Below the pieces are notes generated by a model, which was given only the letters and a program-made list of their open reading frames with translations, made no database searches and was not told where the DNA came from. Source: Thermomicrobium sp. (GTDB lineage: Bacteria > Chloroflexota > Chloroflexia > Thermomicrobiales > Thermomicrobiaceae). From it: a DNA stretch of 64,000 nt. The DNA lies in assembly GCA_025060175.1 (NCBI GenBank), contig JANXBE010000003.1, forward strand, positions 1 through 64,000. Reading direction: 5' to 3'. A program made the translations under genes and the position numbers. Of this stretch, positions 20,445-41,988 are shown one piece after another (within the stretch, counting starts at the first letter, position 1; every line of letters starts with the position of its first letter).

Positions 20445-21452
20445 TCACGAAGGAATCTGGCGCTGCTTCAGCCACGGCATCATCGCACGCAGCCGCTCTC
20501 CCACTTCCTCGATCGGGTGACGCAGATGCTCTTCCCGGAGTCGGTAGAAGTTCGGGCGTCCAGCCTCGTTCTCTGCGATCCACTGCTGCGCGAAGCGCCC
20601 AGTTTGGATATCTTGGAGGATCTGATGCATCGTTTCGCGCACGTGGTCATCGATGATTTTCGGACCACTGACATAATCACCGTACTCAGCCGTATCGCTC
20701 ACCGAGTACCGCATGAACTTCAATCCACCTTCGTAGATGAGGTCGACGATCAACTTGAGTTCGTTGAGCACTTCGAAGTACGCGATTTCCGGTTGATACC
20801 CGGCTTCGACCAGCGTTTCGAAGCCCGCTTGAATGAGGTGGCTGACACCTCCGCAGAGGACTGCTTGCTCGCCGAACAGATCGGTCTCTGTTTCTTCTTT
20901 GAACGTCGTCTCGATGACCCCGGCCTTCGTGCAACCCAACGCCTTGGCGTAGGCGAGCGCGATCTGCTTGGCGTGGCCGCTGGCATCCTGGTGCACAGCG
21001 AGGAGTGCTGGCACCCCGATGCCTTGCACGTACAGCTCGCGCAGGATGTGACCAGGACTCTTCGGCGCGACCATCGCGACGTCGACATCGGCGGGCGGAA
21101 CGATGCGGCCGTAGTGGATATTGAAGCCGTGGGCGAACAGCAGCAGTTTGCCCGGTCGCAGCTCCGGCGCCACGCTCTCTTCGTAGACACCCTTTTGCAC
21201 GTGGTCCGGCATCAGCATGGAGATGATGTCTCCCCGCTGAGCCGCTTCCCGCGGCGTGAGCACCTCGAAGCCGTCGGCCGTCGCCCGGTCTCGGCTGCGA
21301 CTCTCCTCGTGGAGACCGACGACTACCCGGATGCCACTGTCACGAAGATTCTGCGCATGGGCGTGCCCTTGGCTCCCATAGCCGAGTATCGCCACCGTTT
21401 TCCCAGCGAGATGTTGGAGATCTGCGTCAGCATCGTAGTAGATCGTCGCCAT
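20445..21452 (-). CDS. ilvC: ketol-acid reductoisomerase
   Basis: A 335-residue class I (short) enzyme converting acetolactate or acetohydroxybutyrate to dihydroxy acids with NAD(P)H and Mg2+. Visible are the Rossmann loop [35 protein letters not shown], the metal-binding stretch [24 protein letters not shown], and the C-terminal [17 protein letters not shown]. The cofactor loop reads [14 protein letters not shown]; both Ser are kept but the usual first Arg is His, so NADH/NADPH preference is uncertain. The ATG at 21452 gives the standard start. It is third in ilvB-ilvN-ilvC, 45 bp after ilvN. Confidence 0.95.
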
Positions 21453-21497
21453 CGGTCGTGATACCCTCCGCTCAGACCCCTTCCGCACACGCGTGCG

Positions 21498-22025
21498 TCA
21501 TGCTACAACTGGCTGCGGCACGACGGCAACGGCCCGCGTTCCGCGTGCCATGGCGATCACCCCGGAGCGCGCGAGTTCCTTGATTCCGTACGAGCGAACC
21601 ATCGTGATGAGCGAATCGATCTTTTCCGGCGGCCCGGTGACCTCGATGATCAAGGAGTCCGGCGTGGCGTCGACGATCCGTGCTTGGTAGACGTCGGTCA
21701 CCAACCGCATGATGTCGCTGCGGTTGCGATCGGTAGCCGTCACCTTCACCAGGGCCAGTTCACGCTGCACGAGATTCTCGTCCGTCACGTCGGTGATCTT
21801 GATCACCTCGAGGATCTTGTAGAGCTGCTTGACCAACTGCTCGATCTTTCGGTCATCTCCTTGCGCGACCAACGTGATACGCGAGAGGCCGGGTGTCTCC
21901 GAGTGGCCCACCGCGATGGAGTCGATGTTGAAGCCTCGCTGTCGGAACAAACTGACGATCCGGTTCATGACACCCGGCTTGTCTTCGACCAGCACGACCA
22001 GTGTATGGCTGCGCACGCTCACCAT
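21498..22025 (-). CDS. ilvN: acetolactate synthase small (regulatory) subunit
   Basis: A 175-residue regulatory subunit that activates IlvB and confers valine feedback inhibition. The N-terminal ACT domain reads HTLVVLVEDKPGVMNRIVSLF, then RGFNIDSIAVG and SRITLVAQGD; the C-terminal half carries RELALVKVTA and IIEVTGPPEKIDSLI. Length and layout match the long IlvH/IlvN form with two domains. Its ATG overlaps the ilvB stop by 7 bp (ATGGTGA), so the two subunits are translationally coupled. Confidence 0.95.
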   Translation of the reverse strand: MVSVRSHTLVVLVEDKPGVMNRIVSLFRQRGFNIDSIAVGHSETPGLSRITLVAQGDDRKIEQLVKQLYKILEVIKITDVTDENLVQRELALVKVTATDRNRSDIMRLVTDVYQARIVDATPDSLIIEVTGPPEKIDSLITMVRSYGIKELARSGVIAMARGTRAVAVVPQPVVA

Positions 22026-23755
22026 TCCCCCTCGATCCGATAGTCGTCGATCATGTCGCGGAACGTTCCCCCGGACGGGATCATCGGGAACACGTTCTCC
22101 TCTTGATTGACGACGAATTCGATCAATGCAGGGCCGCGAAACGAACGGGCCCAGGCGATCGCGTCGTCCACCTCACCCGGTCGCGTCACGCGCCTCGCCG
22201 CCATCCGGTATGCCTGTCCGAGCAGCACGTAGTCCGGGCTGGAGATCGGCGTCTCCGAATAGTTGCGATTGTGGAAGAGTTGTTGCCACTGTCGCACCAT
22301 TCCGAGGTAGCCGTTATTGATGATCGCCACTTTCACGTTGAGCTGCTCGTCGACGATGGTGGCGAATTCGTTCAAGGTCATCTGCACGCCCCCATCGCCG
22401 ACCACGGCCCAGACCTCTGCCTCCGGTCGACCGACCGCAGCCCCCATGGCGGAGGGAACGCCGTACCCCATCGCGCCGAGGCCACCGGAGCTGAGCCACT
22501 GCTTCGGGATATCGCACTTGTACAGTTGCGCCGTCCACATTTGATGTTGGCCGACGTCCGTCGTCACGATCGCCTTGCCCTCGGTCAGCGCGTGCAGACG
22601 GGCGATCACGTACTGCGGCTGGAGCACCCCGTTCGGTCCCGAGGGCTCGGTGCGGATCGGACGGTACCAGCTGCGGATCATGCTCAACCAGTCCTCATGC
22701 TCCAGCGGTTCGAGTTCCTCGAGGAGGAGGCGCAACGCTTCGCGGGCGTCGCCAACGACGGGCACCTCCGTCTTCAGCACTTTCCCGATCTCGGCTGGAT
22801 CGATGTCGATGTGGATGATCTTCGCGTTCGGAGCGAACTCGCTCGGGCGTCCAGTGACGCGGTCGTCGAAGCGCATACCGATCCCGATGATCAGGTCGGC
22901 CTCATGGATGGCACGATTGGCATGCGCGTGCCCGTGCATCCCGACCATCCCGAGACAGAGCGGATGGGATGCCGGAAAACCGCTGATGCCGAGGAGTGTC
23001 AGGCCCACCGGAATCTGGGTGCGCTCAGCGAAGCGGACCAGTTCCTCGGTCGCCCCACTGATGATGATGCCGTGTCCAGCGAGCACGAGCGGTCGCTTCG
23101 CTTGCCGAATCAGCTCAGCAGCACGGCGGATCTGCCGCCGGTGAGGGACGATGGTCGGCCGGTAGCCGGGTAACTGGAGTTCCTGGCGTGGGGCCAAGAA
23201 CCCTTTCGCCAGCTGCACGTCCTTGGGGATGTCGATCAGGACAGGACCAGGACGACCGGAACGTGCCAGGTAGAACGCCTTCTGGATCGCCGGCCCGATC
23301 TCATCCACGCTCCTGATCACCATGTTGTACTTGGTGATCGGAAGTGTGATGCCCGTGATGTCGGTCTCCTGGAACGCGTCCATGCCGATCACCGTCTGTG
23401 GGACTTGACCGGTGATCGCGACGATCGGAATCGAGTCCATCATCGCGTTCGCGATGCCCGTGACCAGATTGGTCGCTCCAGGCCCGGAGGTCGCCATGCA
23501 CACGCCGACTTTGCCAGTAGCCCTGGCATATCCGTCCGCAGCGAATGCTGCGGACTGCTCGTGTCGAACCAGAATGTGGTGGACAGGATAGTACGGGAGA
23601 GCGTCATACACTGGCAGGATCGCCCCGCCAGGGTATCCAAAGATGACTTCCACGCCCTCACGGACCAGCGCCTGCATGACCAAGTGTGCACCCAACTGGG
23701 GTTCGCGTTGCGACTCTTCCTGGACTTGCGGTCTGTCGCGCGTTTCGATCGCCAT
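22019..23755 (-). CDS. ilvB: acetolactate synthase large (catalytic) subunit
   Basis: A 578-residue thiamine-diphosphate enzyme condensing pyruvate with pyruvate or 2-ketobutyrate, the first step of branched-chain amino acid synthesis. Visible are the ThDP-activating Glu in HILVRHEQSAAFAADGYARA, SGPGATNLVTGIANA, the FAD-region motifs, and the C-terminal ThDP/Mg site GDGGVQMTLNEFATIV...AIINN. Start ATG 23755 has a strong AGGAAGGAGG site nine bases upstream. It is first in the operon, preceded by a leader peptide and competing hairpins (see 23793-24070). Confidence 0.96.
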   Translation of the reverse strand: MAIETRDRPQVQEESQREPQLGAHLVMQALVREGVEVIFGYPGGAILPVYDALPYYPVHHILVRHEQSAAFAADGYARATGKVGVCMATSGPGATNLVTGIANAMMDSIPIVAITGQVPQTVIGMDAFQETDITGITLPITKYNMVIRSVDEIGPAIQKAFYLARSGRPGPVLIDIPKDVQLAKGFLAPRQELQLPGYRPTIVPHRRQIRRAAELIRQAKRPLVLAGHGIIISGATEELVRFAERTQIPVGLTLLGISGFPASHPLCLGMVGMHGHAHANRAIHEADLIIGIGMRFDDRVTGRPSEFAPNAKIIHIDIDPAEIGKVLKTEVPVVGDAREALRLLLEELEPLEHEDWLSMIRSWYRPIRTEPSGPNGVLQPQYVIARLHALTEGKAIVTTDVGQHQMWTAQLYKCDIPKQWLSSGGLGAMGYGVPSAMGAAVGRPEAEVWAVVGDGGVQMTLNEFATIVDEQLNVKVAIINNGYLGMVRQWQQLFHNRNYSETPISSPDYVLLGQAYRMAARRVTRPGEVDDAIAWARSFRGPALIEFVVNQEENVFPMIPSGGTFRDMIDDYRIEGEW

Positions 23756-23792
23756 CGACTCGTCCTCCTTCCTTCAGGTATCGAACAGACGA

Positions 23793-23868
23793 CGAGCCTC
23801 CCGCTCGGGGAGGCTCGCGCTGCGCTCTGTCGTCACTCTCCGTGCTGTACGCGCCCGCTCAGCCTCCC
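23793..23868 (-). promoter_or_regulatory. ilvBNC attenuator: competing antiterminator and terminator hairpins
   Basis: In the transcript the 8-mer GGGAGGCT occurs twice: over the last codons and stop of the leader peptide (23861-23868) and in the hairpin 3' arm (23795-23802). Both copies are complementary to one AGCCTCCC at 23808-23815. The downstream pairing makes a 10-bp stem (23793-23802 with 23808-23817, 5-base loop); the upstream pairing is 8 bp and excludes it. A ribosome stalled at the Leu/Val/Ile codons leaves the first copy free (antitermination); one reaching the stop covers it (termination). The tract after the stem is only moderately U-rich (UCGUCUGUUCG). Mechanism inferred from sequence. 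Confidence 0.7.
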
Positions 23869-24008
23869 GTTGACGGCCGGCCTACCGGAATGAGGACCGC
23901 TACGACGAGGCTGACGAGGCGATGCTGGCCCGACGGATGCGCGGTGACGATCCGCACCGCTCGGCCGCTCCGTGGTCCGCGATCGTCTTTTCCGTGCGCG
24001 ACACCCAT
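23859..24008 (-). CDS. ilvBNC leader peptide
   Basis: A 49-codon reading frame starting 27 bases after the predicted transcription start and ending about 100 bases before ilvB. Codons 31-42 read LVSLVVAVLIPV, nine of twelve being Leu, Val or Ile, the three products of the downstream pathway (23883-23918). The TGA lies within the first arm of the antiterminator. GGGGGA stands four bases before the ATG at 24008; an in-frame GTG at codon 18 is an alternative start. The peptide resembles no protein, as expected for a sensor whose translation, not product, matters. Confidence 0.65.
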   Translation of the reverse strand: MGVAHGKDDRGPRSGRAVRIVTAHPSGQHRLVSLVVAVLIPVGRPSTGG

Positions 24009-24041
24009 CGAGTCCCCCGCGGCATTCGATATCCTAAGCGC

Positions 24042-24070
24042 AGCGTAGCAGAAGCCATGCCTGCTGTCAA
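24042..24070 (-). promoter_or_regulatory. promoter of ilvBNC
   Basis: Consensus TTGACA (24065-24070), a 17-bp spacer, and TACGCT (24042-24047) on the minus strand. The start near 24035 precedes the leader-peptide ATG by about 27 bases. Confidence 0.75.
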
Positions 24071-24145
24071 GGATCCGCCGTGTGGCCACATGGAGAGCGC
24101 TCGGTCGGTCGCGGGTCGGTCGCTGGGCGGGTTGCCTAGGAGGCT

Positions 24146-24754
24146 TCAGAGCATTCGTCCTGGCTGGCGGCGCGCGGCGTGGCGAAAGACCTCGGCGTCC
24201 CGGCGAGCCAGCCGGGCGATGTCGCGTGTCAACGCCTCGACGCGATCGAGAACGTGCCCGAGATACTCCGTGGGTGGCAGCTCCTCGAAACCGAGCGTCG
24301 GGTCCATCGGATCGCGCCAGATCGCTGCGGAACCAGTCTCCGCATCGATCTGCAGCAACGGCGCGAACGCGCTCGCATGCTCCTTCCGATCGAGCCACCA
24401 GAGCCATCCGGTGCGGGGTCGAAGGGATTCCTCCAGGAGGTTCACAATCGCGCTGTCCACTGCGACGGCCACGAACCGGGCGCGGAGGTTGCGCCAACTG
24501 ACACGGTCGGCTGGAAGCGGCTGCGGAAGAAGGAGGTTGAAGCCGTGCAGGGCAGCCGTCAGCGCCTTGAGAAGCTGGTCGACGACCGCCGCAGCCGCGG
24601 CCTCGGCAAGAGCCGGTCGGTGGGCACGGAGCGATTCGCGTAGGATCGTCAACTGCTCCCGGGCGCCGGACAGACGTAGGAGAATCTGGTTCTCGGTGGG
24701 AAGCTTCGCCAGTCCCGGATCGTCCATTCCAGTCCACGCTTTCACCACGCACAT
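24146..24754 (-). CDS. hypothetical protein
   Basis: A 202-residue protein I do not recognise. It looks mostly alpha-helical, with Leu/Ala/Arg-rich stretches (ENQILLRLSGAREQLTILRESL; AAAAVVDQLLKALTAALHGFNLL) and a Trp-rich middle (TGWLWWLDRKEHASAF). There is no signal peptide or membrane segment, and the C-terminus is basic. The ATG at 24754 is preceded by GGTGAT; a second ATG nine codons on is possible, and the frame continues further upstream without a ribosome site. It lies upstream of, and on the same strand as, ilvBNC, and is divergent from the response regulator. Confidence 0.55.
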   Translation of the reverse strand: MCVVKAWTGMDDPGLAKLPTENQILLRLSGAREQLTILRESLRAHRPALAEAAAAAVVDQLLKALTAALHGFNLLLPQPLPADRVSWRNLRARFVAVAVDSAIVNLLEESLRPRTGWLWWLDRKEHASAFAPLLQIDAETGSAAIWRDPMDPTLGFEELPPTEYLGHVLDRVEALTRDIARLARRDAEVFRHAARRQPGRML

Positions 24755-36512: not shown

Positions 36513-37931
<1,419 letters not shown>

Positions 37932-40317: not shown

Positions 40318-41988
40318 ATGCGGAGCCAGCGGATCACGCACGGAATCGACCGGGCACCAGCCCGGGCCATGCTCCGAGCGGTCGGGTTTCGTGACGAGGA
40401 CTTCGAGAAGCCGATCGTCGCGATCGCCAATACCTGGACCGACGCGATGCCATGCAATTACCACTTGCGCGAACTCGCACAGCATCTCCGGGAGGGGATT
40501 CGTGAAGCTGGTGGCGTCCCGGTCGAGTTCAACACGATCGCGGTGAACGACGCGATCTCGATGGGGACCGAGGCGATGAAAGCCTCGTTGATCAGTCGCG
40601 AGGTGATCGCTGATTCGATCGAACTGATGGCGTACGGGTACCAGTTCGATGCGATCGTCGCCCTGGTTTCTTGCGACAAGACGATTCCCGGCGGCGCGAT
40701 GGGGGTGATCCGCGCAGGGGTACCGGCAATGGTTCTCTACGGCGGTTCGATCGCTCCTGGGCTGTGGCGCGACCGGGAATTGACGATCGTGGAAGTGTTC
40801 GAGGCGGTCGGTGCCTACGCGGCTGGAAAGATAACGCTGGACGAGCTGCGAGAGATCGAGCGCCGAGCGATTCCGGGACCCGGCGCCTGTGGGGGACAGT
40901 ACACGGCGAATACGATGGCGATGGCGCTGGAGGTACTCGGTCTCTCGCCGATGGGGTACAACGCTATCCCCGCCGTGGCTCCCGAGAAGGCCGAGGCGAC
41001 GCGCGAGGCTGGTCGTCGCTTCATGGACGTGGTGCGCGCGAATCGGACGCCACGAGACTTCATCACCAAGCAATCGCTGCGGAACGCGATCGCGGTGGTG
41101 GCTGCGACCGGAGGGTCGACGAATGCGGTGTTGCATTTGATCGCGATCGCGCACGAGCTCGGCGTCCCGCTGCACATCGACGAGTTCGACGAGATCAGCC
41201 GGCGGACACCAGTGATCGCTGATCTCAAGCCGTGGGGCAAGTACGTGGCCTGGAGTCTCTATAAGGCCGGCGGGACGAAGCTGGTCGTCAAGCGTCTCCT
41301 CGAGGGCGGTCTGCTGGACGGCGACCAGCGGCTGGTGACCGGTGAGACGTTGGCCGAGGCAGTTGCAGATGCCGAGGAGGCGCCCGGCCAACCGGTGGTC
41401 TACCACCCGTCGAATCCCCTCAAATCGCACGGCGGGCTGGTCATTCTCCGCGGCTCGCTCGCGCCCGAAGGAGCAGTTCTGAAGGTCGCTGGGACGGAAC
41501 AGCTCTCCTTCCGCGGGACGGCGCGGGTCTTCGACGCTGAAGAGCAGGCGATGCAGGCTGTGTTGAGTCAGCAGATCCGGCCCGGTGATGTTGTCGTGAT
41601 CCGCTACGAGGGGCCCAAGGGCGGACCAGGCATGCGGGAAATGCTCGGTATCACGGCCGCGATCGTCGGTGAGGGACTGGGACCGCATGTCGCTCTGGTC
41701 ACCGACGGACGATTTTCGGGTGGGACGAAGGGGTTGATGATCGGGCACGTGGCGCCGGAGGCGCCGGTCGGCGGTCCGATCGCTCTCGTGCAGGACGGTG
41801 ATACGATCGTCATCGATGTCGACCGCCGCCGCATCGATCTGGAGGTGTCCGAGGAGGAACTTGCGGCTCGCCGAGCACGCTGGTCCCCACCCCCGCCGCG
41901 GTTCGCCCACGGGGTCTTCGCCCGGTATGCCGCGCTGGTCAGTTCCGCGTCGGAGGGAGCGATCCTGCGGACGCCCCGCTGGCACTGA
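40318..41988 (+). CDS. ilvD: dihydroxy-acid dehydratase
   Basis: A 556-residue Fe-S dehydratase giving the 2-keto acids of valine and isoleucine. Three Cys can ligate the cluster: Cys46 in [13 protein letters not shown], Cys119 in [12 protein letters not shown] and Cys191 in [14 protein letters not shown]. The PCNxHL form is the one associated with [2Fe-2S], oxygen-tolerant enzymes, unlike E. coli's [4Fe-4S] enzyme with a Gly-Val at that place; this fits an aerobe. The C-terminal [22 protein letters not shown] is typical. ATG 40318 has a GGGGAG site upstream. It is separate from ilvBNC by 17 kb and has no visible leader peptide. Confidence 0.94.

Follow-up and report, generated by a model that had tools for sequence, protein, structure and literature searches.

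The leader of the ilvBNC operon in Thermomicrobium sp. is most probably a ribosome-mediated (leader-peptide) transcription attenuator, a reading to which we assign a probability of roughly 0.87. The leader lies on the minus strand of a 64,000-nt stretch of contig JANXBE010000003.1, here termed the window. By sequence comparison, strands 2, 3 and 4 of its RNA are conserved and covary, and the identity of the control codons tracks the pathway at three loci, ilvB, leuA and cimA. A wider proposal stands at about even odds, namely that ilvBNC, leuA and cimA form a regulon in Thermomicrobium under amino-acid-matched leader peptides, with hairpins that end transcription almost without a U-tract (a lineage-wide property that extends to T-box terminators) and with leuA read in series by a Leu T-box and then a Leu leader peptide.

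Predicted leader peptide and competing stems upstream of ilvBNC

The features of the leader and of the genes concerned are collected in Table 1. A first-pass annotation, made from the letters of the window, had proposed branched-chain amino acid (BCAA) attenuation at this site, and comparison with relatives supports the proposal through coding-type indels, an invariant control codon, compensatory changes and residues matched to the controlled gene. The promoter is present as it had been described, and TTGACA-17-TAnnCT recurs at the equivalent site in all 11 relatives checked (three genera). The 49-codon leader with nine Leu, Val or Ile residues in twelve codons was likewise confirmed, as was the 8-mer GGGAGGCT covering the leader stop. 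The hairpin repeating this 8-mer sits where it had been placed, but it comprises 11 bp including a terminal G-U pair instead of the proposed 10 bp, around a loop of 5 nt. The shared partner AGCCTCCC (23815-23808), situated inside the hairpin, had been predicted to pair with one copy of the 8-mer only. The 2:3 and 3:4 pairings are mutually exclusive and both are supported by covariation. The 2:3 duplex of the window reaches -29.5 kcal/mol, which none of 200 dinucleotide shuffles matched. The ilvB gene of the window is 95% identical to ilvB on a contig titled uncultured Thermomicrobium.

Table 1 Features of the ilvBNC leader region in the window and of cimA in the same genome.
Feature	Position	Strand	Details
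Sigma-70-type promoter TTGACA-17-TACGCT	24042..24070	-	TTGACA 24070-24065, TACGCT 24047-24042, spacer 17 nt
Leader ORF, 49 codons, MGVAHGKDDRGPRSGRAVRIVTAHPSGQHRLVSLVVAVLIPVGRPSTGG	23859..24008	-	ATG 24008, TGA 23859; GGGGGA 4 nt 5' of ATG
Control codons LVSLVVAVLIPV	23883..23918	-	Leu/Val/Ile 9/12, with the in-frame Val codon GUA among them
Strand 2 GGGAGGCU, 5' arm of the putative antiterminator	23861..23868	-	overlaps leader stop; lengthened on the ilvB side by GAGCGGGCGCG
Strand 3 GCGAGCCUCCC	23808..23818	-	common to putative antiterminator and terminator
Strand 4 GGGAGGCUCGU	23792..23802	-	3:4 putative terminator hairpin (23818-23792), -22.1 kcal/mol, followed by weak U-tract CGUCUGUUCG
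ilvB Shine-Dalgarno AAGGAGG	23764..23770	-	not within hairpin; about 21 nt past it
ilvB, acetolactate synthase large subunit	22019..23755	-	TIGR00118, E = 1.5e-229
ilvN, acetolactate synthase small subunit	21498..22025	-	TIGR00119
ilvC, ketol-acid reductoisomerase	20445..21488	-	TIGR00465
cimA, citramalate synthase	G000:C13:35221-36750	-	TIGR00977, E = 3e-206; Ile-rich leader MTTIAIIAILRPRVAG..., same hairpin at 36807-36827

For true ilvB orthologues from 67 genomes of the class, the sequences 5' of the gene were compared, with genus and family labels taken from the genome search (g1 and f1 denote the genus and the family of the window). Leaders with at least seven Leu, Val or Ile in twelve codons were counted as BCAA-rich. 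Such a leader precedes ilvB in 18/18 members of f1 (scores of 7-11 out of 12), 2/2 of f2, 20/24 of f3, 2/2 of f4 and the single member of f5, and also in the further families f7 (4/4), f8 (4/4), f11 (2/2), f13 (2/2) and f14 (2/3). The lower-scoring f3 leaders retain the common core CTC GTA CTT. One f4 genome (L033) has an ORF that does not resemble the other leaders, and a matching hairpin was not found there. As a background, 527 upstream regions of one Thermomicrobium genome scored at least 9 in 0.2%, at least 8 in 2.3% and at least 7 in about 10% of cases, and 0.4% of 310-nt pieces drawn at random from the window reached at least 9/12. In family f12, ilvD stands 5' of ilvB, and the one genome read further (L192, G067) has a BCAA-rich ORF, MNNRPAFIIISNLLSLVIVVITRSLLCGRG, with a score of 9 before ilvD.

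The leader ORF bears several marks of selection on its codons. Across the leader codons of 17 f1 rows (alignment A1), each of the 31 gap runs is 3 or 6 nt long, whereas gaps between strands 2 and 3 of the same rows mostly measure 1 or 2 nt. An in-frame GTA codon for Val stays unchanged in 19/19 aligned leaders (17 from f1 and two from f2). GTA accounts for 20 of 24 Val codons in the leaders of the genus compared with 7.4% in a set of 105 long genes from this genus (P = 2e-19), for 45/57 across f1 and for 39/48 in f3; in the window it provides two of the five Val codons of the cluster. CTT and ATT, rare genome-wide, are also frequent in the leaders. By these patterns the leader is under coding constraint, as distinct from direct proof of translation. 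The first-pass annotation had suggested aligning the ilvB upstream regions of Thermomicrobia and had regarded a lack of conservation of the leader codons or of the competing stems as evidence against its own proposal; both proved conserved among the relatives, and the stems covary. Short BCAA-rich ORFs were also observed before ilvB in L105, L109 and L113 (titled Balneolales, Balneolaceae and Aliifodinibius), L079 (Ignavibacteriae), L036 (Thermosporothrix), L068 (Thermoflexales) and L096 (Litorilinea). They may mark further leader-peptide attenuators outside this phylum and in other classes of Chloroflexi.

The 2:3 pairing beats dinucleotide shuffles in all 18 members of f1 (0-4 of 200 shuffles were equally good); in distant families the pairing loses strength and often fails to exceed shuffles significantly. 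Covariation in alignment A1 places the 3:4 stem above each of 500 shuffles and far above slid registers, and the value for 2:3 was reached by one shuffle in 500. At one position strands 2, 3 and 4 change jointly from G:C:G to C:G:C in genus g5, a single event in one lineage. Distant families have an altered core and retain the repeat, as seen with TGCGGAAGG in L140, GGGGGGC in L120 and GGAGGCCAT in L119. A hairpin between strands 1 and 2 occurs in some genomes; it surpassed synonymous recoding in L005, L006, L012, L015 and L018 but not in most others, and was for this reason dropped as a required part of the mechanism.

We infer stalling, termination and the direction of regulation as follows. 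RNA polymerase would start near 24042, with a ribosome translating the 49-codon leader. A shortage of charged Leu-, Val- or Ile-tRNA, and especially of the tRNA for the rare GUA, would stall the ribosome at the control codons; strand 2 would then be free to pair with strand 3, the 3:4 hairpin would not form and the polymerase would enter ilvBNC. With charged tRNAs in ample supply, the ribosome would reach the stop inside strand 2 and mask this strand, 3:4 would pair and transcription would stop at about 23791-23780. The geometry of the leaders is consistent with both states. In 17/17 aligned f1 leaders, to which this measure applies (for the two f2 leaders it yields no clear placement), the invariant GUA lies 33-39 nt 5' of strand 2, such that a stalled ribosome would leave strand 2 free, and the stop is found 6-19 nt past the start of strand 2, in or just past it, such that a finishing ribosome would cover it.

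Related leaders upstream of leuA and cimA

The motif GCCTCCC-N(3-10)-GGGAGGC occurs exactly three times per genome in G001, G003, G006 and G009, and each of these 12 sites is located directly upstream of ilvB, leuA or cimA. In the incomplete assembly to which the window belongs, the motif was found twice, at the ilvB site and upstream of cimA. The hairpin at the latter position was also considered as the terminator of a neighbouring ilvB-like gene; this assignment was rejected, as the hairpin is that of the putative cimA attenuator. The composition of the leaders differs with the gene downstream: leuA leaders contain 33 Leu, 4 Ile and 3 Val, cimA leaders 34 Ile, 5 Leu and 5 Val, and ilvB leaders 63 Leu, 47 Ile and 44 Val (chi-square P = 4e-13, a value to be taken as a guide only since the genomes share ancestry). 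The contrast is illustrated by IIAIIRPRVAG before cimA versus LLRLSLSRPRGG before leuA. If ribosome stalling were not the signal, such a switch of residues with the controlled gene would be difficult to account for. For the leuA and cimA leaders, the 2:3 duplex is mostly not significant against shuffles because the regions are G-rich; the cimA leaders bear a GGGGAGG-type repeat of strand 4.

The leuA gene appears to be equipped with a second sensor. A T-box (RF00230) scores above the gathering score 5' of the leuA leader in G001, G006, G007, G009 and G010, and its core sequence is visible before leuA in further genomes. In its specifier loop, the conserved GAA is followed by CUC as the specifier, which encodes Leu. 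In L214-L218, a Leu-rich leader ORF with a GGCCTCCC-type hairpin comes directly after this Leu T-box in front of leuA, the leader being weak in the g5 genome L214. The arrangement would provide a natural example of one transcript with two charging sensors. Independently of leuA, a T-box was observed ahead of the BCAA leader of ilvB in family f8 (L134:225-442, L135:183-392, L136:143-358 and L145:145-359).

Neither a convincing leader nor a strong hairpin was found in the ilvD upstream regions of the family. The stand-alone ilvD of the window (40357-41970) is also without leader or strong hairpin upstream and for this reason seems to lie outside the regulon. Leaders for single amino acids (Trp, His, Phe, Thr and others) were sought in 580 kb of two Thermomicrobium genomes, 400 kb from a sister species and 180 kb from the genome of the window, and no convincing second class emerged at a threshold that misses the genome's own ilvB leader as well.

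U-poor hairpins and alternative readings

The weak U-tract had been the main doubt of the first-pass annotation, and it is real: four of the ten nucleotides in the tail of the window hairpin (CGTCTGTTCG) are T. The ten nucleotides after the ilvB hairpin hold 2-4 T in the genus of the window, 4-7 in the rest of the family and mostly 5-7 in family f3; T5-6 comes after this hairpin in most f3 relatives and in order-level relatives. In 400 kb of the sister genome, most hairpins that crude gene calling places at gene ends are U-poor. The leuA T-box terminators, which form a distinct and well-defined class of terminators, end in TTTTTT in g2 and g5, and in short or broken tracts, e.g., TTTGGCG, GTGTTG, TTCGGC and GCTGCTTTAT, in g1 and g4. 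Genome by genome, the long U-tract of these T-box terminators is lost in g1, g3 and g4 (L217, L218, L239, L240, L241, L219 and L216), and T6 is kept in g2 and g5 (L215, L238 and L214). The U-poor gene-end hairpins and T-box terminators argue for U-tract loss as a trait of the lineage, and the weak U-tract at ilvB looks like an instance of it. The off step would be intrinsic termination with a poor U-tract, possibly aided by Rho/NusG.

A stronger involvement of Rho has to be weighed, in which leader-peptide control would be coupled to a Rho/NusG-dependent or Rho-assisted off state at a hairpin without a proper U-tract. Rho is present at full length in the genome of the window and was found in all relatives, and the poor U-tracts of g1, at ilvB and likewise at the leuA T-box terminators, are compatible with such a role. 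However, the linker from leader stop to hairpin, which would be free of ribosomes, is A/G-rich with C mostly not exceeding G and is not rut-like, and a strong hairpin of 9-14 bp is strictly conserved although a rut-type mechanism needs none. The T5-6 behind the same hairpin in order-level relatives and the many other U-poor 3'-end hairpins of the genus also speak against this reading, and we consider it unlikely.

It is quite improbable that leader and stems govern the access of ribosomes to ilvB and not transcription. The weak U-tract would suit translational attenuation, and strand 3 (CCUCCC) resembles an anti-Shine-Dalgarno sequence; yet this strand is paired in both states, and the Shine-Dalgarno sequence of ilvB is situated beyond the hairpin. 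In relatives with a GCCTCC-type hairpin, the ilvB start lies anywhere between 33 and almost 300 nt from the hairpin, a spread that argues against Shine-Dalgarno sequestration, and relatives possess a U-tract. The first-pass annotation had allowed for translational as well as Rho-linked variants; the former have become unlikely on account of the position of the Shine-Dalgarno sequence and the variable distance, while help by Rho remains conceivable.

The ORF might also be a chance hydrophobic reading frame in GC-rich DNA beside an ordinary hairpin, or encode a small membrane protein. Short Leu/Val-rich ORFs are common in GC-rich DNA, as the background of about one gene in ten at the lower threshold illustrates. 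Several facts speak against chance: the leaders are conserved across families, their indels are of the coding type, one invariant codon is rare, and Leu prevails in leuA and Ile in cimA leaders. The N-terminal parts of the leaders are not conserved among relatives, which makes a functional protein unlikely. By comparison, both versions are largely refuted and we regard them as very improbable. Finally, a riboswitch or T-box with an incidental leader ORF is scarcely credible: T-boxes do precede leuA in the family of the window and ilvB in f8, but a permissive Rfam 15 scan of 23700-24150 (E up to 5) matched the leader to no riboswitch, T-box (RF00230) or ilvB-type family, and a T-box would not fit into the short stretch between promoter and leader. 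A CRISPR-DR20 match from the same scan (E = 0.6) was below the gathering score and was ignored.

Comparison with known attenuators

In the attenuators of enterobacterial ilvB, ilvGMEDA and leu, stalling at control codons frees strand 2, the 2:3 and 3:4 pairings exclude each other and the residues match the pathway. The logic proposed for the Thermomicrobium leader is the same, whereas phylum and sequence differ, the 1:2 pairing is weak and a separate cimA attenuator would read Ile.

BCAA leader peptides that attenuate ilvB are also described for Actinobacteria, with the ilvB-II motif of Corynebacterium (PMC10272879) and predictions for Corynebacterium, Mycobacterium and Streptomyces (PMC1262725). 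As in the window, a BCAA-rich leader ORF lies right upstream of ilvBNC together with competing antiterminator and terminator. However, the Corynebacterium leaders mostly have 15-17 codons, overlap the first stem and are followed by a terminator with U-tract, in contrast to 49 codons, a stop in strand 2 and a U-poor hairpin here, and a sequence relation was not found (no Rfam match). A look-alike ilvB leader of Streptomyces coelicolor did not respond to codon mutation (PMC1262725), which counts against the attenuator reading. The ilvB-OMG and Leptospira ilvB motifs (PMC10272879) share with the window a conserved RNA 5' of ilvB and a BCAA-rich upstream ORF; the window matched no ilvB-type Rfam family at E up to 5, in an Rfam copy that may not include these two. 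In Staphylococcus, a leucine-rich attenuator peptide is encoded upstream of ilvD in the ilv-leu operon (PMC5794164). This case likewise combines a BCAA leader peptide with transcription attenuation outside Proteobacteria, but ilvD comes first and the antiterminator sequesters the poly-U instead of strand 3 (PMC5794164). The Leu T-box, which senses Leu-tRNA charging and precedes leuA in the family of the window, is a sensor of another type and is absent from the window's ilvB.

A survey of premature terminators from 2010 knew of none beyond Proteobacteria and Actinobacteria except its own case in Firmicutes (PMC2965389). Our full-text literature searches yielded no described case from Chloroflexi or Thermomicrobia, in agreement with the first-pass annotation, which knew of none in Thermomicrobia; an earlier prediction in Lopatovskaya et al. 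2010 (Mol Biol 44:128) is conceivable. Within the literature searched, the mechanism is thus known, and the lineage, the regulon and the U-poor terminators appear undescribed. Most documented cases of leader-peptide attenuation come from Proteobacteria and Actinobacteria and some from Firmicutes; here its predicted elements extend throughout the class of Thermomicrobium. This class-wide presence and a hairpin core shared by distant families suggest that the attenuator is old in this lineage. The relatives provide a natural series of putative attenuators, some of which have retained the U-tract and others not, and the series makes it testable how a thermophile polymerase would terminate conditionally when the hairpin is followed by a short U-tract or none. 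Two features hold wider interest, namely the putative conditional terminators with their poor U-tracts and the proposed pair of sensors in series on leuA.
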